From an uncultured Clostridium sp. (lineage in GTDB: Bacteria; Bacillota_A; Clostridia; TANB77; CAG-508), in NCBI GenBank assembly GCA_948466265.1, contig CAOJZU010000020.1, positions 1 to 27,856 on the forward strand: a DNA stretch of 27,856 nucleotides. Reading direction: 5' to 3'. The notes under the pieces are model-generated. The model worked only from the letters and a program-made list of their open reading frames with translations, had not been told where the DNA came from and did not search any database. The translations under genes were made by a program, and so were the position numbers. Positions 57 through 27,829 of this stretch are shown piece by piece (the first letter of the stretch is position 1; each line of letters opens with the position of its first letter).

Positions 57-671
57 TTAATTAAAAAATTGGCTTTTTGTTTCTTGGCTTTCACTTTTGT
101 TAGCCTCTTTAGCGAAATTAGCAGCCATACTAATATCGTCTCCTTCATCTCCTTTGTTTCCATCGGGATCAACTGGCTCATAACCAGATGCTTTTTTCTT
201 TTCAAAGAAATGAGGTGCTTCTTTTTTGTAACCTTCAATTAATTCTTTTAATCCTACTAATGACTTTTTATCATCAGATATTTTTGTTTTATCTTTATCT
301 TTATTTATTAATGAAATTACTGCTTCTCTTGTAAATTTGTCTTTTAATACTTTTGCATCATCTAGACCTTTATTTAGTAAATCATTATAAATATAATCTT
401 CATTTTCTTTTTTAGCATTATCCTCTATTTCTTTAATTTTTTTGTCGTATTCATCTTTTGAAATACTATTCTTTTGTAAATCAGCAATTGCTTTTTCTTT
501 GTCCTCTTTTTCTTTTGTAATAACTTTTTTGTCATTCTCTAATTGTGATTTTTCAGATTGTAAGGTTGTAATCTGAGTATTTAATGCAGCAACCTCTGCA
601 CCATTTTTGGCCATAACAGATTCTACTTGTTCATCTGTTAATCCCATTGCCTTTAATTCTTCTCTTTTCAT
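57..671 (-). CDS. Phage scaffold protein (GP20-like)
   Basis: A 204-residue, highly charged protein. It starts MKREELKAMGLTDEQVESVMAKNG, a short helical segment typical of phage minor structural GP20/scaffold proteins. A long coiled coil follows (about residues 30-95, rich in E, K and Q), then a Lys/Asp-rich part and an acidic, Gly/Asp-rich C-terminal tail. Scaffolds of this family line the procapsid and leave or are cleaved before DNA fills the head. The start at 671 is chosen over an upstream in-frame ATG at 746 because AAAGGAG lies seven bases before it, whereas the upstream extension has no ribosome binding site and falls in structured non-coding DNA. Position after portal and MuF, and before the probable capsid gene, supports the role. 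Family-level call; sequence conservation in scaffolds is weak. Confidence 0.8.
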   Translation of the reverse strand: MKREELKAMGLTDEQVESVMAKNGAEVAALNTQITTLQSEKSQLENDKKVITKEKEDKEKAIADLQKNSISKDEYDKKIKEIEDNAKKENEDYIYNDLLNKGLDDAKVLKDKFTREAVISLINKDKDKTKISDDKKSLVGLKELIEGYKKEAPHFFEKKKASGYEPVDPDGNKGDEGDDISMAANFAKEANKSESQETKSQFFN

Positions 672-764
672 GAGTTCTCCTTTCAATTCAGGCATTCGTG
701 TTTTTATACGGAGCAACGCCTCCGACCTGGTGTTGTTATCGAACAACTTACAAAATCGTAATAT

Positions 765-796
765 ATAAAAAATAGGTATGTTAAGTTACATACCTA
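765..796 (-). terminator. Second terminator-like hairpin before the scaffold gene
   Basis: On the minus strand a perfect nine-base-pair stem TAGGTATGT/ACATACCTA with a six-base loop is followed by TTTTTTATAT. It is the second terminator-like structure within 120 bases in the same direction. It may instead be a processing or regulatory hairpin, since capsid genes lie downstream. Confidence 0.55.
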
Positions 797-860
797 CCTT
801 TATAACTTTGTTATGGTTGTTTAAGAATCCATTTAATCTGCCACTATATCTACAGACACC

Positions 861-887
861 AAAAAAAGACATATAAAACTATATGCC
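861..887 (-). terminator. Rho-independent terminator after the candidate immunity gene
   Basis: On the minus strand an eight-base-pair stem GGCATATA/TATATGTC (one G-T pair) with a GTTT loop is followed by seven T residues. It lies about 50 bases after the stop of the 71-residue gene and would lower transcription of the scaffold and later head genes. Confidence 0.6.
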
Positions 888-935
888 TTTTAAATAAAAT
901 CGCCTTAAATTGTATTTTAGCGGTTCGTTTTTTCG

Positions 936-1151
936 CTATTTCTCGCTATTTTCTAGTATTTCAATCTTTAATATTTCGTTTTCAAAAAGTGAGTAATTTT
1001 TATTGTCTTGTTCGTTTAATATATCGATTTCTTCTACTTCTGGTTCATTATCTTCAGCTGGTACATATCCAACAACTTTTCCTATAAATTCTTTACTATT
1101 ATCTACTTTTATTTTTACTCTTTTACTTAAATATTCTTCTAAATTTTTCAT
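936..1151 (-). CDS. Small acidic Lsm/SH3-like protein; candidate immunity protein
   Basis: A 71-residue acidic protein. It has a short helix (MKNLEEYLSKR) and then beta-strand-like segments, KVKIKVDNS, FIGKVVGYVPA, EEIDILN, YSLFENEILKIEIL. The pattern resembles small Sm-like or SH3-like barrels that recur in Firmicute phages with a DNEPE motif; that family memory is tentative. It starts four bases after the MuF-toxin gene stop with AAAGGATAAT before the ATG, and a terminator follows it. In MuF polymorphic-toxin loci the gene right after the toxin often encodes its immunity protein, and small size and acidity fit that role. No direct evidence of toxin binding is visible. An alternative is a conserved head-module accessory protein unrelated to immunity. 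Confidence 0.7.
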   Translation of the reverse strand: MKNLEEYLSKRVKIKVDNSKEFIGKVVGYVPAEDNEPEVEEIDILNEQDNKNYSLFENEILKIEILENSEK

Positions 1152-1155
1152 AACA

Positions 1156-2721
1156 TTATCCTTTCTTATATGGAACTATATGAACTCCCGTTTTACTATA
1201 ATGAATTTTAAAACTGCTTGTTTCTGTTTCTCCTTTTTTAGTTTTTACCACACCTATTTTTTTATTTATTTCTATGATTTCTTTCTTGTCCCATTTTCCA
1301 TTTTTATCAAAGTTTATTGTACCTTTTCCTGCATATTTATTAACTAAATCTTGTGCTTCTTTGTTAGATATAGTTAGATAACTTTTACTATCAATATAAT
1401 TGTTGCTACCTCTAATGTGTTTGTCTTGCTTACCAACATCAATAATTTTATTTGTATTACTGATATATTGTTTAACCGCTTCATTGCTAGTTATTCCTTT
1501 TGCATCTGCATATTGTGCTTTTAAATTCTTCCATTTGTCTATATTATTATACTTCATTTCTTGAAAATCTGCAAATGTTCTAGGTATATCATCTCCAAGA
1601 ATATTTTTATATCTTTTGTATTGTTCATAGTCTGATGATTTATTTTTATTCATTTTTACATCAGTTTCAAATGCCTTCTTAGTTGCTGGATCAGAATATA
1701 CATATTTTTCTAACCATTCATTATATGTAATATTGTTTGGTATATAATATGTTTTTCCTCCAGTATTTCTTGCTGCTCTTTCTCCAAACTCAAATTCATC
1801 CTTAAAGTATGGTGCTGTTGTCGTTCTACATCTAATATGATATGGTGGTGCAGTTATTCCTATTTTATAATCTTTCATATCAAATATCTTTCCATCTATT
1901 TCTCTACATTCTTCTGATGTTTTAGAGTCTAATGTTGCTATATTTATATATTGTTGTACCCATAATTCATTAAAACATTGTTTTCTTGATGCACTTGCAA
2001 AAAATGCTGATTCAGTCATTACTAATCTGCCAGCTTTGTATTGACTTGTATTAAAATCTTTAGCAATTTTTTCTATAAGTTGATCTGCATCTCCTCTTAA
2101 AGATTTCTCTAAGTCTTTTTGCAGTGTATCTAACAAAGCTTTTTTATTTTTCCAAATTCTATTTGAGAATGTTTGCTCATCACTTGTCCATGGTCTAGAT
2201 ATAATTTTTTGAATAGTACCTATATCTAAAGTTGCAAATTTAAAGGCCACGTTTGAACCTTTTTGTAATTCATATGCCGTTTTATAATAATTGTCCTTAT
2301 ATGATTCAATAATAAATTCAGTTGTGGTTTCTTGTTCATTATAGTATAATTTTTCAATTTGTTGCTGTATTTGTATTTCTAATGCTTCTAATCTAGAAAT
2401 ATGAACTTTTGCACTTGCATTTTCTAATTCTTTTTTCCAAATTAGATCTATTCCATTTTCTTGACCATATTTTATATATTCATCAATATCCCATTTTAAT
2501 TCTTTTAGTTCTTGATTATTTAACCACTTTTTAGCTTCTTTCATACTGATTTGATTATTTACTGCAAATCTTACTAACCAGTTATTTATCTCTTTTTTTA
2601 CTGAACTTAATGTTCTTTCATATGCTTCTTGCAATTCTGTAATATATTTTGCATCATTTAGTAATTGTGCTTTTTCAAGTTCTTCAAATCTTTTAATCCA
2701 ATATTCTGCATCTCTTCCCAT
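1156..2721 (-). CDS. MuF-type minor head protein with C-terminal Ntox50-like toxin domain
   Basis: A 521-residue protein of the SPP1 gp7/Mu gpF minor head family. Residues 1-150 are helical and charged. The MuF core is about residues 215-306, with ATLDSKTSEECREIDGKIF and then APPYHIRCRTTTAPYF, the conserved block of the family. After a linker, residues about 427-518 read KQDKHIRGSNNY, YLTISNKEAQDLVNKYAGKG, KEIIEINKKIG and a final HYSKTGVHIVPYKKG. This matches my recollection of the bacterial toxin 50 (Ntox50) domain, a predicted RNase of polymorphic toxins, with candidate catalytic His435, His507 and His514. MuF proteins sit at the portal and some are injected with DNA, so the toxin could act in the infected cell. 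The start overlaps the portal stop (TAATG), with GGTGA as ribosome binding site. Confidence 0.88.
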   Translation of the reverse strand: MGRDAEYWIKRFEELEKAQLLNDAKYITELQEAYERTLSSVKKEINNWLVRFAVNNQISMKEAKKWLNNQELKELKWDIDEYIKYGQENGIDLIWKKELENASAKVHISRLEALEIQIQQQIEKLYYNEQETTTEFIIESYKDNYYKTAYELQKGSNVAFKFATLDIGTIQKIISRPWTSDEQTFSNRIWKNKKALLDTLQKDLEKSLRGDADQLIEKIAKDFNTSQYKAGRLVMTESAFFASASRKQCFNELWVQQYINIATLDSKTSEECREIDGKIFDMKDYKIGITAPPYHIRCRTTTAPYFKDEFEFGERAARNTGGKTYYIPNNITYNEWLEKYVYSDPATKKAFETDVKMNKNKSSDYEQYKRYKNILGDDIPRTFADFQEMKYNNIDKWKNLKAQYADAKGITSNEAVKQYISNTNKIIDVGKQDKHIRGSNNYIDSKSYLTISNKEAQDLVNKYAGKGTINFDKNGKWDKKEIIEINKKIGVVKTKKGETETSSFKIHYSKTGVHIVPYKKG

Positions 2722-4268
2722 TACTTATCACCAACTTTTGCACCATCTTTATTGCTAGTTGATTTATTGTTATTTAGTTCTTTTATCATCTTATCGTATT
2801 CGGATTCTTGTTTTTTCGCCTCTTCTTTTTCTTCAGTTTCAATTTTTTCTTCTTCATCTTCTACATCGCTAACATATGGATGTCTTGATCTAATTGTATA
2901 TTTACTTATTATTCCCATACTATTTACACAATTCTCAATTAGTTCTTTTTCGTTTACAGTCATAGTTTTATTAAATACAAATTCTATTTCTTTATCAGTA
3001 TAATCTCTTCCTGTTGTCATCTCTACCCAGTTATTATAGAAGAACATAAAGTATTCTAAACTACTCTTGAATTCTGTTTCTATATTGCTACAATCCAAAT
3101 CTAAATCCGCATATAATTGTTTTAGTGCAACTCCTGACTCTTGTGTTCCAAATTTTTCACTTTGTGTATCAACTCCAGAACCACCTTCATAAATATCTTT
3201 TCTTAATTGCTCTATAAAACTTTTAAATGCTTCTATATTTAATTCTATATTCTTCCTATCATATTCTCCATCATCATCAAGAAATACAGTATTATATGTT
3301 GCAAGATTTTTTTGGAAAGTTCCTGCTTCTGATTGATAGTTTTTAACAACATTAACTCCATCTGGTGCTTCATAAATGGAATCTCCTGTTCTAGAACATA
3401 ATTCATCATAACAATCAATAAGAGACTTCAGTAAATGAATTAATGGCATTTCATCCCCATTATATTTAAAATAAATAAAAGGTATTTTGGTCCATTTATG
3501 AAGTGTATCTCCAATTTTAAAGTGTGCTAAAACACTAATTCCATGTGAATCTTTTCCTATTACTAAATCTTGTCTTTTTTCTACTTCTTCCACATCTTCT
3601 ATTAATGTTGCACCATCATAAATAAGATATCTAACTCCATCTAAATCCCAATATTCTACTTTTGTTTTCTTTTCTCTTTCTGTTTCACTTGTATATACCT
3701 CAACATCATAAGTCATTATTACCGCATCTAATATTTCATGTTCTTCATCTTGCCATAATGGGATTATTCTTGTTGCATACCTTAATCTTGCTTTTAAATC
3801 TCCATTGTTATCAATATATATTTGCCACCAACTTATACCTCTTTTTACTGCTTCTATCAATGTATATTTAAGTCTTTTATGCATTTTATTATTAAATAAT
3901 GTTTTTAAAATTTCTTTGTATTCTTCATCTTCTTTTTCATCTTTTGCTATTACTTGTTTTATTGTTGGTTTTTTTCTTAATAAATATCCAGCTTTTTGAT
4001 TTATCATTTTATATAGTATTGGATGTTTTAATATATAATTCTTAGAATGAGGTGCAATTTCTTCAATTCCATCTTTATTTATATATGTTCTTTGCTTTTT
4101 CTCAATATCGCCTTCATTTTTAAAATATTTGCTGCCTTCTATCATTTCCTTATATGTATTTGATTGTTTAAAATCATTTATTTGTAAATCAATAAATTTA
4201 GATAATTCCATGCCTTTTTTTGCTCCTTCAGCAATTATCATCTTTATTTTATCCATTTCTGTTATCAT
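2721..4268 (-). CDS. Portal protein (SPP1 gp6-like)
   Basis: A 515-residue portal protein of the SPP1 gp6 family, which forms the dodecameric ring at one capsid vertex through which DNA is packaged. Family features include an N-terminal helical region with YFKNEGDI and ILKHPILYKMINQKAGYLLRKKPTIK, a central part with KIPFIYFKYNGDEMPLIHLLKSLIDCYDELCSRTGD, and SGVDTQSEKFGTQESGVALKQLYADLDLDC near residue 370. The C-terminus is very acidic and then Lys-rich (EEEKIETEEKEEAKKQE), common in these proteins. Length is close to SPP1 gp6 (about 500). Position between TerL and MuF is canonical. The start has AAGGAGAG nine bases upstream. Its stop overlaps the start of the MuF gene, suggesting translational coupling. 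Confidence 0.93.
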   Translation of the reverse strand: MITEMDKIKMIIAEGAKKGMELSKFIDLQINDFKQSNTYKEMIEGSKYFKNEGDIEKKQRTYINKDGIEEIAPHSKNYILKHPILYKMINQKAGYLLRKKPTIKQVIAKDEKEDEEYKEILKTLFNNKMHKRLKYTLIEAVKRGISWWQIYIDNNGDLKARLRYATRIIPLWQDEEHEILDAVIMTYDVEVYTSETEREKKTKVEYWDLDGVRYLIYDGATLIEDVEEVEKRQDLVIGKDSHGISVLAHFKIGDTLHKWTKIPFIYFKYNGDEMPLIHLLKSLIDCYDELCSRTGDSIYEAPDGVNVVKNYQSEAGTFQKNLATYNTVFLDDDGEYDRKNIELNIEAFKSFIEQLRKDIYEGGSGVDTQSEKFGTQESGVALKQLYADLDLDCSNIETEFKSSLEYFMFFYNNWVEMTTGRDYTDKEIEFVFNKTMTVNEKELIENCVNSMGIISKYTIRSRHPYVSDVEDEEEKIETEEKEEAKKQESEYDKMIKELNNNKSTSNKDGAKVGDK

Positions 4269-6435: not shown

Positions 6436-7629
6436 CTACCTTTTATCTAAAATTGCCTCTTTATTAGTTAGAGTTTCCCATCGCTTTACTATAACATCAC
6501 AATATTTTGGATCTAATTCCATAGAATAACAGCTTCTATTTAATTGTTCTGCTGTAATAATAGTGCTACCACTTCCTCCAAATAAATCCAATATTATGTC
6601 ATTTTCTTTACTAGAATTTTTTACTAATCTAGCAATTAGATCTATTGGTTTCATTGTTGGATGTAATGCACTTTGTTTTGGCCTGTCACATTCTAATATT
6701 GTACTTTGTGTTCTATCATTAATGAAATAATGTGCTGCACCTTCCTTCCATCCATATAATATCGGTTCATGTTGCCACTGATAGTCTTGCCTACCCATTA
6801 CAAAACAATCTTTTTTCCAAATCAAACATTCTGCTAACTTAAAACCTGCATCTTTAAATGCTTTTCTAAAATTAAGTCCTTCAGTATCTGCATGAAACAC
6901 ATATATAGATGCTCCTTCTCTTGTAACATCAAACATATTCATAAATGCTTGTTTTAAAAATTCATAGAATTGACTATCATTCATATTATCATTCGCTATT
7001 TTTAATGCATCTACTGTTTTTCCAACATAATCTACATTATATGGTGGATCTGTAAGAAGCATATCTGCCTTTTGTTTATCCATAAGGCGCATAACATCTT
7101 CTTTTTGCGTACTATTTCCACACATTAATCTATGTTTACCAAGTATCCAAATATCTCCTGGTTTTGTAATAGGTTCTTCTATTTCTTCATAAGCTGAATC
7201 TATATCGAAATCATCTTCTTTACTTCCATTCATATCCTTTAACATTTCATCTACTTCATCGAAATCAAAACCCGTTAAGTTTGTATCAAAATTTTGTAAT
7301 TTTAATTCTTGTAATAATTCCTCTAATTTTTCTTCATCCCAGTCACCCTGTATTTTATTTAGCGCAATATTTAGTGCTTTTTCATTCGTTTTATCTAAAT
7401 CTACTACAATACATTCTAATTCTATAAATCCTAATTCTTTTAAAACTTTTAATCTTTGATGTCCTCCAATAACTGTCATATCCTTATTTATTATTAAAGG
7501 ATTTACAAATCCAAAGTTTTCTATACTATTTTTAATCTTTATATATTCTGGATCATTTGGCTTTAAATCCTTTCTTGGATTATAAGTAGCAGGTATTAAT
7601 TTATCAATTCTAATTGTTTGTATATTCAT
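6436..7629 (-). CDS. ParB-like domain fused to DNA adenine/cytosine-N4 methyltransferase
   Basis: A 397-residue fusion. Residues 1-130 form a ParB/sulfiredoxin-like domain (YNPRKDL at 16-22, VIGGHQRLKVLKELG at 53-67). From about residue 155 a DNA amino-methyltransferase follows: WILGKHRLMCGNST, catalytic TDPPY (193-197), HPTMKPIDLI (323-332) and SAM-binding DLFGGSGST (348-356). The catalytic motif before the SAM motif gives the beta-type order, typical of phage and plasmid N6-adenine or N4-cytosine methylases. It probably modifies phage DNA against host restriction, or marks packaging sites, being right next to terminase. The start has AAGAAGGTGATTAA upstream. A second ParB-like protein lies two genes upstream and looks paralogous. 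The target base and site cannot be read from sequence. Confidence 0.92.
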   Translation of the reverse strand: MNIQTIRIDKLIPATYNPRKDLKPNDPEYIKIKNSIENFGFVNPLIINKDMTVIGGHQRLKVLKELGFIELECIVVDLDKTNEKALNIALNKIQGDWDEEKLEELLQELKLQNFDTNLTGFDFDEVDEMLKDMNGSKEDDFDIDSAYEEIEEPITKPGDIWILGKHRLMCGNSTQKEDVMRLMDKQKADMLLTDPPYNVDYVGKTVDALKIANDNMNDSQFYEFLKQAFMNMFDVTREGASIYVFHADTEGLNFRKAFKDAGFKLAECLIWKKDCFVMGRQDYQWQHEPILYGWKEGAAHYFINDRTQSTILECDRPKQSALHPTMKPIDLIARLVKNSSKENDIILDLFGGSGSTIITAEQLNRSCYSMELDPKYCDVIVKRWETLTNKEAILDKR

Positions 7630-7643
7630 TTAATCACCTTCTT

Positions 7644-8675
7644 TTATATTTTATCTAGCAATTGCTGCTTTATTTGTTCAGCAATTTTCTTCATCATAAT
7701 TGGTGGTACACTCATGCCACATACATATTGCACATTCATTCCCATAAAATCATAGTCTTGTGGAAATGTTTGTATTGTAATAATATCTTTATCACTTGCA
7801 TATCCTGGTACATCATATCTTAATGGAGGACTTCCACCTGCTGCTATTGTTGCTGGTGTTCTATCATCTTTTAAATATTGAGTATTAAAACAACTTATTT
7901 TTCCTTTTTCTGTTCTTTTTATTGTGTCACTCAATTTAACATCTCTTGCTATTCGTTTTTTCCATCTTTCATATGTTAGTGTATCCTGGTTTAATTCTTT
8001 ATAGTTGCTATCTTTTATTTCTGCATATTTTATTGGTTTTTCATTAAATTCTAATTTTATTTTTGGAAAATTTATATTTTTGTTAACTGCAATAAAGAAT
8101 AATCTTTCTCTTCTTTGAGGTACTCCCATCTTTGCAGCATTTAGCAAAAACAATTGTGTATTATATCCAATTTCATTTAGTCTTTTAATTATTAAATTTA
8201 CATATCCTCTTGCATTGCCCTGCATTAATCCTTTTACATTTTCAGCAACTATTATTTTAGGTTTCAATATATTGGCCAGATCTATAAATTCAAAAAACAA
8301 GTCATCTAATACTTGACTTGTTTGACCTTCTCTAAATTTTTTGTTCTTTCCCCAGTTTTTTTCTCTTTCTCCACATAGTGAAAATGTACTACATGGAGGA
8401 CTACCATCTAATATATCTAAATCATATAATTCTGCAGGTAATTCTTTTAATTTATTCATTTCTTGAATACCCATACAATAATTATATTTAGGATGATGGT
8501 TTCTTACATAGATATCATTTATTTTTTTATCGATCTCACAATTTCCAATAACATCATATCCTGCTAGTTTATATCCCATAGTAGAACCACCACCACAAGC
8601 AAAACATGAAAAAACTTTATAATTATTCTTTGGTATATTTTTTATATCTTTTAAATACCATTCATATTCTTTCAT
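7644..8675 (-). CDS. dcm: DNA (cytosine-5) methyltransferase
   Basis: A 343-residue C5-cytosine methyltransferase using SAM. Motif I is FACGGGSTMGYKLAG (about residue 25). Motif IV is GSPPCSTFS with catalytic Cys95. Motif VI is ENVKGL (about 145) and motif VIII is QRRERLFF (about 187). Late in the protein, RTPATIAAGGSPPLRYDVPGYA and QTFPQDYDFMG fit the target-recognition and closing motifs. The start at 8675 is preferred to an ATG at 8699 because AAGGAG lies nine bases before it and it begins one base after the upstream ParB-like gene stop. No restriction endonuclease gene is adjacent, so this is probably a solitary protective methylase. Confidence 0.93.
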   Translation of the reverse strand: MKEYEWYLKDIKNIPKNNYKVFSCFACGGGSTMGYKLAGYDVIGNCEIDKKINDIYVRNHHPKYNYCMGIQEMNKLKELPAELYDLDILDGSPPCSTFSLCGEREKNWGKNKKFREGQTSQVLDDLFFEFIDLANILKPKIIVAENVKGLMQGNARGYVNLIIKRLNEIGYNTQLFLLNAAKMGVPQRRERLFFIAVNKNINFPKIKLEFNEKPIKYAEIKDSNYKELNQDTLTYERWKKRIARDVKLSDTIKRTEKGKISCFNTQYLKDDRTPATIAAGGSPPLRYDVPGYASDKDIITIQTFPQDYDFMGMNVQYVCGMSVPPIMMKKIAEQIKQQLLDKI

Positions 8676-8676
8676 C

Positions 8677-9198
8677 TTATTCCACTCCTTGCTGTCCATC
8701 TACATCAAATACAAAACCACATTTTGGACACTTGCATTGGAATTTATCGTCATTGAAATCGTTTAAATCTATTTCTGCATTATCATTCATAGTTTCTTCT
8801 GTTTCTTTAATAAGTTTGTTTATTTCTTTTTCTTCAAAACCTGTGATTGATAAATCAATATTGTTATTTTCTAATTCATTAAATATGCTTTCTAACTTTT
8901 GATAATCCCATTCTCCAGATATCTTATTAAGTGCTATGTTTAATAATTTTTCTTTATTCTTGTCAAAATCAACTATTATACAATCTATATCTTCATATTT
9001 TAGATCTTTTAAGACTTTAAGTCTCTGATGTCCACTTATTACTGTCATATCTGAATTAACTATAATTGGTGTAACATATCCAAATTCAATAATACTATTT
9101 TTTATCTTTTGGTATTCTTTGTCTTTTTCTGTTAGTTCTTTTCTGGGATTGTATGCTGCCATTTTTAAATCCCCTATTTTTAATTTTTTTAGATTCAT
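8677..9198 (-). CDS. ParB-like nuclease-domain protein with C-terminal zinc ribbon
   Basis: A 173-residue protein whose first 120 residues form a ParB/Srx-like domain (YNPRKELTEKDKEYQKIKNSIIEFG, then VISGHQRLKVLKDLKYE). They match the N-terminus of the ParB-methyltransferase two genes downstream almost motif for motif, including LNIALNKISGEWD and TGFEEKEINKL. The end carries CKCPKCGFVFD, half of a zinc ribbon or a knuckle. It may be the remnant of a second ParB-methylase fusion, or a specificity or adaptor partner of the C5 methylase encoded immediately after. ATG at 9198 has AGAAGGAAAAC upstream; the longer frame from 9228 has no ribosome binding site. Confidence 0.85.
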   Translation of the reverse strand: MNLKKLKIGDLKMAAYNPRKELTEKDKEYQKIKNSIIEFGYVTPIIVNSDMTVISGHQRLKVLKDLKYEDIDCIIVDFDKNKEKLLNIALNKISGEWDYQKLESIFNELENNNIDLSITGFEEKEINKLIKETEETMNDNAEIDLNDFNDDKFQCKCPKCGFVFDVDGQQGVE

Positions 9199-25541: not shown

Positions 25542-26063
25542 TTGTTAGATGATAAATATAAAAAGATTTTTTCTAAAAATTTGAACTACTATATGAATCT
25601 AAAGGGAAAGACTCAAACAGATATTATAAACGATTTAGATATTAATAAATCTGCTATCTCTAGTTGGTGCAATGGAACTAGATTACCAAGAATGAATAAA
25701 GTGGAATTACTAGCAGATTATTTAAATATAACTGTATCTGATTTAATCGGAAACAATGATGAAAATAATAATTACTTTGAATTTATAGCTGAAGATGATG
25801 CTATGTTTCCATTATTAGATGTCGGTGATATAGCATTAGTATATAAACAATCCCATATTGAAGATGAAGCAACTTTATTAATTATTATGGATAATAAAAA
25901 AACCATTAGAAAATTCGTATTAAATGAAAATAAAACTTACTATTCATTAATTGCTATGAATGCTTGTTATAAAAATATAGATATAAATATTAATGATATT
26001 AATACTAAAATCAAAGTACTTGGAAAAGTTGTAAAGACTGAAAATAGAAGTGCTTTTAAATAA
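25542..26063 (+). CDS. CI-like repressor with degenerate S24 domain
   Basis: A 173-residue repressor. Residues 8-70 form an XRE helix-turn-helix (NLNYYMNLKGKTQTDIINDLDINKSAISSWCNGTRLPRMNKVELLADYLNI). The rest is a LexA/CI-type S24 domain: FEFIAEDDAMFPLLDVGDIALV, then LLIIMDNKKTIRKFVLNENK and YSLIAMNA. In self-cleaving relatives the first block is GDSM or DDSM; here the nucleophile position is Ala87, and no Ala-Gly cleavage pair is visible in the linker. So RecA-driven self-cleavage is unlikely, although dimerisation may remain. Start is TTG at 25542 with GCGAGG eight bases upstream. It is transcribed away from cro. Confidence 0.9.
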   Translation: MLDDKYKKIFSKNLNYYMNLKGKTQTDIINDLDINKSAISSWCNGTRLPRMNKVELLADYLNITVSDLIGNNDENNNYFEFIAEDDAMFPLLDVGDIALVYKQSHIEDEATLLIIMDNKKTIRKFVLNENKTYYSLIAMNACYKNIDININDINTKIKVLGKVVKTENRSAFK

Positions 26064-26782: not shown

Positions 26783-27829
26783 ATGGAAAAAAAGAAAAAA
26801 TCAGCTTTATATGTAAGGGTTTCAACCACTCATCAGATTGACAAAGATTCTTTACCTTTGCAAAGAAGCGATTTAACAAATTATACAAAATATGTATTAG
26901 GAATTGATGATTTTGAAATATTTGAGGATGCAGGTTATTCTGGTGGAACAACCGACAGACCCGCATATCAAGATATGATGAATAGAATTAAAAAAGGAGA
27001 ATTCACACATCTAATTGTATGGAAGATTGACCGTATTAGCAGAAACTTACGAGATTTCTCAGAAATGTATGATGAATTAAAAAAATATAATGTAACTTTT
27101 ATTTCAAGAAACGAACAATTTGATACATCTACAGCTATGGGTGAGGCAATGCTAAAAATCATATTAGTATTTGCAGAACTTGAAAGAAAACTAACAGGAG
27201 AACGTGTTTTTTCTGTTATGATTTCTCGTGCTCAAAAAGGTTTATGGAATGGTGCTACGATTCCACTAGGTTATGAATGGGATCCAGAAATAAAATTTCC
27301 TAGACCATATGACAATGAAGCAAAAGTGGTTCAGTATATTTATGACCAGTATGAAATAATAAAGTCCACTACAAAATTAGCTAAAAAATTAAATATTGAA
27401 AAGATTCCAACAAAAAGAAATGGTACTTGGACCCCTCGTACAGTTGGAAGCATACTTACAAATCCTTTTTATATTGGAACATATCGTTATAACACCAAAA
27501 CTAGAAAAACTCGAAGATGGAAAGACAAAAGCGAATGGGTTGTTGTAGAAGATAATCATCAAGCCATAATTAATAAAGAACAATTTGAAAGGGTGGAAAA
27601 AATTATTCAAGGAAATTATAAGGGTGATAAAAATTACCAAAGAACAAACAATAAAGTTCATATTCTTTCTGGAATAGCAAGTTGTCACAAATGTGGAAAG
27701 AAAATGCATTCTGGTTTGGATCGTGCTCGAAAAGAAGGTTTTACTCCGTCACGATACACATGTTATGCATTTAATGTTAATTACACCTGTGCAAATTATT
27801 CTAGTGATTTGCCTCTCCTATATCAATGA
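26783..27829 (+). CDS. int: Large serine recombinase (phage integrase), C-terminally short
   Basis: Site-specific integrase of the large serine recombinase family. The resolvase-type catalytic domain (1-150) has YVRVSTTHQIDKDSLPLQR with catalytic Ser14, FEDAGYSGGTTDRPAYQDM, VWKIDRISRNLRDF and FAELERKLTGER. The recombinase domain follows (about 165-300; IPLGYEWDP, WTPRTVGSILTNPFYIGTYRYN). The zinc ribbon (about 310-340) has CHKCGKKM and then YTCYAFNVNYTCANYSS. The frame stops at 348 just after the ribbon, so the coiled-coil and tail of normal members (about 450-550 residues) are missing. GGAGGTTTTTTATT precedes the ATG. This may be truncation at a prophage-host junction. Confidence 0.92.
   Translation: MEKKKKSALYVRVSTTHQIDKDSLPLQRSDLTNYTKYVLGIDDFEIFEDAGYSGGTTDRPAYQDMMNRIKKGEFTHLIVWKIDRISRNLRDFSEMYDELKKYNVTFISRNEQFDTSTAMGEAMLKIILVFAELERKLTGERVFSVMISRAQKGLWNGATIPLGYEWDPEIKFPRPYDNEAKVVQYIYDQYEIIKSTTKLAKKLNIEKIPTKRNGTWTPRTVGSILTNPFYIGTYRYNTKTRKTRRWKDKSEWVVVEDNHQAIINKEQFERVEKIIQGNYKGDKNYQRTNNKVHILSGIASCHKCGKKMHSGLDRARKEGFTPSRYTCYAFNVNYTCANYSSDLPLLYQ

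Follow-up and report, generated by a model that had tools for sequence, protein, structure and literature searches.

The head-gene cluster of a temperate gut phage in a 27,856-nt stretch from an uncultured Clostridium sp. (GenBank assembly GCA_948466265.1, contig CAOJZU010000020.1, positions 1 to 27,856 of the forward strand; hereafter the window) encodes a MuF minor head protein that ends in an Ntox50 toxin domain and, directly behind it, a 71-residue acidic protein with a predicted Sm fold. The head protein is very probably a MuF polymorphic toxin and the small gene its immunity gene, whose product would be supplied by translational coupling and would protect cells from ejected toxin. On phage-head carriers the linkage between this toxin and the Sm-like gene is nearly absolute, and the Sm-like protein most likely represents a further family of Ntox50 immunity proteins, unnamed in the PHROGs database, where it is family 1865. 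These data offer a likely function and mechanism for PHROG 1865, a phage family that had neither, and add an immunity family for Ntox50, a domain that the 2012 catalogue (Zhang 2012, PMC3482391) names, along with phage phiC2, without giving an immunity protein for it.

A toxin-tailed head protein and its Sm-like neighbour

The 521-residue head protein (1156..2721, minus strand) matches Pfam models and the minor capsid protein model TIGR01641 (E 3.6e-23), with a Phage_Mu_F core at residues 210-302 (1816..2094, minus strand; PF04233, E 6.5e-11). The original prediction had taken its tail for an Ntox50-like toxin, and a profile check is unambiguous on this point: residues 427-517 (1171..1443, minus strand) match PF15542 with an E value of 1.3e-31, covering the Pfam profile from end to end (1-92 of 92) and scoring 109.6 bits where the cut-off is 22.2. 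Residues conserved in the family alignment are in place (H435, S447, H507, K510, and HIVP at 514-517 for the HxVP motif), and the signature tabulated for Ntox50 includes two histidines, a lysine and HxVP (PMC3482391). The tail is strongly basic (net charge +10 over residues 425-521), and its confident predicted structure has a BECR-type RNase fold and matches the solved Ntox50 toxins YxiD-CTD and MafB2-CT. The domain is most likely a BECR-fold ribonuclease with tRNA as its target, and the copy in the window would retain RNase activity. Intact copies of the toxin, at least 94% identical, are found elsewhere. With MuF at the N terminus, a toxin at the C terminus, a place in the head cluster of a temperate phage and a small open reading frame (ORF) directly downstream, the locus has the same layout as the MuF polymorphic toxins described in PMC5576092, PMC12226406 and PMC11699363, which name Ntox50 among MuF toxin domains.

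The small gene (936..1151, minus strand) starts four bases past the toxin stop (1152-1155), as had been noted, and its product has a net charge of -8. A Shine-Dalgarno-like AAGAAAGGA (1156..1167, minus strand) lies within the final toxin codons, K-K-G-stop. The terminator expected behind the gene is likewise present, in the form of a U-tailed hairpin at about 864-891 (minus strand; RNA fold of the gap, z -2.8) and a terminator-like hairpin at 768..801 (minus strand; one found against 0.2 expected from shuffles, with RNA fold), some 45 and 135 nt past the gene. The protein had been called Lsm-like; against the Pfam LSM profile it scores an E value of 0.024, under the Pfam cut-off, and the predicted structure (predicted local distance difference test, pLDDT, 93) does show the Sm/LSm fold, with a short N-terminal helix and a five-strand barrel. 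In the same model, assigned with DSSP, an acidic beta2-beta3 loop, PAEDNEPEVE, spans residues 31-40 (1032..1061, minus strand), and loop residue D34 is conserved in at least 90% of 60 sequences. The protein matches PHROG 1865, where its function is given as unknown, with an E value of 5.5e-15; NCBIfam returned no above-cut-off match for the Sm-like, YxxD-like or MafI2-like proteins tried.

The fold and the acidic loop, which go beyond what the original prediction had proposed, recall a solved Ntox50 immunity protein. YxiD-CTD and YxxD of Bacillus subtilis 6633 (PDB 9v8i; PMC12700104) likewise pair an Ntox50-type BECR RNase with a Sm-fold immunity protein; there, the acidic beta2-beta3 loop of YxxD plugs YxiD, and our model has an acidic loop at the same place, which by analogy is predicted to plug the active site of the phage toxin. 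The two systems differ in their carriers, an LXG type VII protein for YxiD and a virion protein for the phage toxin, and in the size of the antidote, YxxD having about 110 residues with extra elements where the phage protein has 71. MafB2-CT of Neisseria meningitidis (PDB 8hhj) also belongs to the Ntox50 family (E 2.3e-12), whereas its partner MafI2 falls into a different partner family (A9); membership of the Sm-like protein in the MafI2 family was rejected (hhalign probability 0.4%, with no ORF matched by both models). Among phages, Clostridioides phage phiC2 (PMC3482391) also has MuF joined to Ntox50, followed by a 66-residue member of the Sm-like family that is annotated merely as hypothetical. 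The characterised MuF toxins Apk2 (PMC12226406) and Bxa (PMC11699363) are of other kinds, alarmone synthetases and an ADP-ribosyltransferase, and the accessible portions of those papers make no mention of Sm-like immunity. The available titles and abstracts of open-licence literature contained no Sm-like protein tied to MuF or to phage Ntox50.

Linkage and co-divergence of toxin and partner

Consistent with the toxin-immunity layout that had been proposed, the Sm-like gene comes next after 176 of the 178 Ntox50 ORFs on recognised phage-head carriers; the other two are a single contig, taken in twice, that ends 44 nt past the toxin. The ORF count includes many near-identical copies and repeat entries of some contigs; clustering at 90% identity reduced 238 Ntox50 ORFs to 129 clusters. 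The phage-head clusters comprise 45 on MuF and 34 on carriers of the Phage_min_cap2 type (min_cap2; PF06152), and the Sm-like gene follows in all 79, a count in which cluster representatives were picked with preference for loci having a partner and room (176/178 being the ORF-level recount). In four of the 45 MuF clusters the toxin or its remnant occupies a separate ORF. The same ORFs match both MuF and PF06152 in three genomes (G098, G142, G145), and the two carrier families may be distantly related.

The 50 clusters on other carriers are more varied: 14 have a Sm-like partner (several of them contig-cut or split pieces), 15 a YxxD-like partner, 13 a MafI2-like partner, and eight no recognised partner, three of these eight having no downstream room. 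The YxxD-like family (A8) and the MafI2-like family (A9) are recognisable as such, their profiles matching YxxD itself (E 2.2e-21) and MafI2 (E 1.8e-12). The Sm-like gene as a universal Ntox50 partner was therefore rejected, 28 of the 50 other-carrier clusters having YxxD-like or MafI2-like partners. Clusters represented by an Ntox50-led scan of genome contigs divide in a similar way, with Sm-like partners in all 15 MuF and nine min_cap2 clusters and, on other carriers, 13 YxxD, 12 MafI2, six Sm-like and eight without a partner. The MuF, min_cap2 and Sm-like models behind these counts were built from the analysed loci, and the Sm-like model was seeded with partners chosen by adjacency, not blind to Ntox50.

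Carriers drawn blind to the toxin gave the same association. Loci were drawn from genomes of the phylum by TIGR01641, PF06152 and PF04233 (one search gave loci for 30 genomes), and the resulting 72 were reduced to 53 by dropping duplicates, open ORFs and loci with less than 250 nt downstream. Of these carriers, 51 have neither Ntox50 nor the Sm-like gene and two have both (Fisher p 7e-4); among the negatives, two short central ORFs (92 and 122 aa) probably do not represent the carrier, and one positive comes from the genome closest to the window. An earlier set, which overlaps with this one, comprised 36 unique MuF proteins whose own ORF lacks Ntox50. Of these, 33 have no Sm-like gene, and the other three, which do have it, are precisely the ones in which an Ntox50 ORF or remnant stands separately behind MuF. 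The observation named in advance as damaging to the pairing, the small gene behind toxin-free MuF proteins in most relatives, was thus made in none of 51 and none of 33 carriers, and a general head-gene role for the Sm-like gene was rejected on the same count of 0/51. Read in the other direction, 20 of 21 unique proteins retrieved by Sm-like sequence have an Ntox50 ORF upstream, and the remaining one (L300) has broken Ntox50 pieces.

Because shared ancestry inflates linkage counts, distances were compared as well. With the carrier core removed, the Sm-like protein tracks the toxin in both carrier families, with a partial Mantel r of 0.32 for 31 MuF pairs (p 0.001) and 0.58 for 29 min_cap2 pairs (p 0.001); in the min_cap2 set the core given the toxin adds a partial r of 0.06 (p 0.14).

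Several pairs stand out for their setting. The pair occurs in two phages of thermophiles, Geobacillus phiOH2 and Aeribacillus AP45. In a faecal phage contig (L062, 2297-2779), the Sm-like gene follows an Ntox50 domain whose N-terminal fusion partner is of the DUF7211 type, and Fusobacterium phage phiFN37 (L056, 1-5270) has a Mu-portal/MuF/Ntox50 fusion with a Sm-like partner, a short distance downstream of which lies an annotated ToxN/AbiQ toxin. On a Ligilactobacillus plasmid (L068, 2462-2921), a short stand-alone Ntox50 ORF and its Sm-like gene adjoin a XerS recombinase. In phage Javan576 (L355, 2702-3192), two tandem Sm-like genes follow Ntox50.

Orphan antidotes and satellite phages

Toxin and partner also behave as a cassette. 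Two related loci, L049 and L051, are 89% identical along 1404 bp that cover the end of the portal gene and the MuF core. They match again, at 91% identity, over 1550 bp running from the final 28 Ntox50 codons past the Sm-like gene. Between the shared stretches, L049 differs in its C-terminus and has a different gene of 66 residues. The old antidote in L049 outlived a toxin swap. A second genome (L075/L232) has a broken Ntox50 followed by an intact Sm-like gene. A third (G123) holds a phage-type Ntox50/Sm-like pair; at a distance of about 22 kb, the same contig has two orphan Sm-like genes in tandem (L234 1486-2563 and L240 624-1701, on the reverse complement of the loci). Orphan and surviving copies are typical of immunity genes. 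The replaced region of L049 (3336-3926) is itself a candidate new MuF toxin/immunity pair ahead of the Ntox50 tail; its C-terminus and 66-residue gene gave no Pfam match beyond the MuF core. The G123 orphans lie near an integrase-like ORF, recognised by eye, and each is behind a 79-residue ORF.

Further orphans are found in streptococcal satellite phages. A tblastn search of phage records with the window's own 71-residue protein found no match, though divergent relatives exist there, and searches with three other Sm-like proteins matched seven satellite-phage records. We analysed six (Javan475, 462, 529, 482, 632 and 354), and all six have the Sm-like gene (hidden Markov model, HMM, E 1.9e-11 or better; loci L353, L354, L358, L359, L360 and L361, around 3001-3200). 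No Ntox50 match above the cut-off occurs in the six whole records. A short toxin-tail scar does remain in four of them: a 14-position Ntox50 tail match in Javan482, and, in Javan462, 475 and 529, some 14 codons of the toxin tail, a length below the reach of profile search. PF04233 and PF06152 match none of the six. This control is a partial one, because the two profiles also miss phage Javan150, in which the Sm-like gene follows Ntox50 (E 7.6e-19).

Part of this DNA can be followed to full phages. A 283-bp piece of satellite Javan462 is 94.7% identical to Javan150 and starts inside the final toxin codons, which in the satellite still read YKSRTHIVPKKGDQ. Between satellite Javan632 and phage Javan645 the shared piece is 177 bp long, 91% identical, and covers the Sm-like gene alone. 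These two shared pieces make at least two captures visible. Nine viral contigs were found with two satellite copies as queries, five with Ntox50 and four without it within 3 kb on each side. Satellites are described as dependent on helper prophages (PMC6813308), and the Sm-like gene may shield recipients of helper-built particles. We tentatively suggest, as an idea somewhat short of an even bet, that virion-borne Ntox50 has selected for stand-alone antidotes: satellites, which travel in helper capsids, would have captured the Sm-like gene from Ntox50 phages, and a cell receiving or carrying the satellite would survive the toxin of helper particles, making toxin and antidote a currency in helper-satellite and prophage-prophage conflict and not only in bacterial competition. 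If satellites carry the antidote from need, then toxin delivery by capsids matters in nature.

Mechanism and competing explanations

By analogy with a related head protein, the toxin would be carried in the virion and ejected from it. The N-terminal MuF/SPP1-gp7 part would place the head protein in the virion, and MuF proteins are believed to number two to three in each head and to bind the viral DNA (PMC12226406). The MuF core has a homologue in gp44 of phage 80alpha (25% identity over 317 columns, HMM E 1.6e-63), which has no Ntox50 match and is followed by a gene without a Sm-like model match; gp44 is described as an ejection protein that aids genome survival after injection and is dispensable for transduction of Staphylococcus aureus pathogenicity islands (SaPI) or plasmids (PMC7290940). 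In the late lytic cell, translational coupling, with a start near the toxin stop and a ribosome site in the last toxin codons, would supply the antidote alongside the toxin, and co-translation would yield a neutralised head protein. Neutralisation would involve the DNEPE of the acidic beta2-beta3 loop of the Sm barrel entering the basic active site and blocking RNA. Copies of the head protein ejected with the DNA would then bring toxin into the next cell, where recipients without the antidote may lose tRNA function and carriers of the Sm-like gene would be spared. As for what a temperate phage might gain, Jamet 2017 (PMC5576092) considers the killing of competitors that are sensitive. Virion delivery of MuF toxins becomes directly testable in this system, as the antidote should protect recipients.

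Several observations weigh against such a toxin-antidote system. A PHROG 1865 search, blind to Ntox50, found nine places in seven of 299 genomes, three with an Ntox50 ORF, one with broken Ntox50 and five with no Ntox50 within about 1.5 kb on each side, so that the link between the Sm-like gene and the toxin is not a strict one. For the MuF pairs, the carrier core (partial r 0.31, p 0.001) and the toxin account for the distances between Sm-like proteins to a similar extent. Similarity between the Sm-like and YxxD families is weak (hhalign probability 27%, P 6.5e-4, over 37 columns), with no ORF matched by both models; Foldseek returned no match to the Sm-like model at E <= 0.001, and YxxD is not among the best 50 structure matches listed, although its absence from that list excludes nothing. 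A promoter scan bearing on antidote expression in lysogens found 11 candidates against 13.5 expected, none above chance. Finally, it would seem self-defeating for a phage to poison its own new host.

Three other explanations were considered. The Sm-like protein could be a head-morphogenesis or RNA-binding phage protein that sits by chance between minor head and scaffold genes, its position in many of the annotated phages examined, and RNA binding is common among Sm folds. We consider this scarcely credible: the gene is absent behind all 51 carriers that were drawn by their own domains and lack Ntox50, accompanies Ntox50 on carriers of two families and where the gene order differs (AP45, Javan290), adjoins the stand-alone Ntox50 ORF of the Ligilactobacillus plasmid, and persists in satellite records without a PF04233 or PF06152 match. 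It is very improbable, too, that the Ntox50 tail is inactive or repurposed here and the Sm-like gene a relic. Some relatives are plainly decayed (L075, L300), but in the window H435, H507, K510, H514 and P517 are kept, reading frame and partner are intact, and the highly similar copies found elsewhere are intact as well.

A more substantial alternative, which we nonetheless regard as unlikely, is that the two genes form an addiction or abortive-infection module at work within the lysogen, the head fusion being only an expression device and no delivery taking place. The tight coupling of the two genes would suit such a module, as would retention of the Sm-like partner where the Ntox50 ORF is split from its MuF ORF (L067, L141). 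Two findings speak against it: in 79 of the 129 Ntox50 clusters the toxin is joined to a virion protein or lies immediately behind one, and an ejection role has been reported for a MuF homologue that lacks the toxin.

The surrounding genes fit a phage head cluster, running on the minus strand from the terminase large subunit through an SPP1-type portal protein (2721..4268; PF05133, E 5.2e-59), the MuF head protein and the 71-residue gene to a capsid scaffolding protein (57..746; PF06810, E 2.6e-20). An S24-type repressor (25542-26063, plus strand) and a serine recombinase (26783-27829, plus strand) indicate that the phage is temperate. Near the terminase gene, the window also encodes two DNA methylases (6436-8699), one combining ParB-N with an N6/N4 methylase and the other a C5 methylase.
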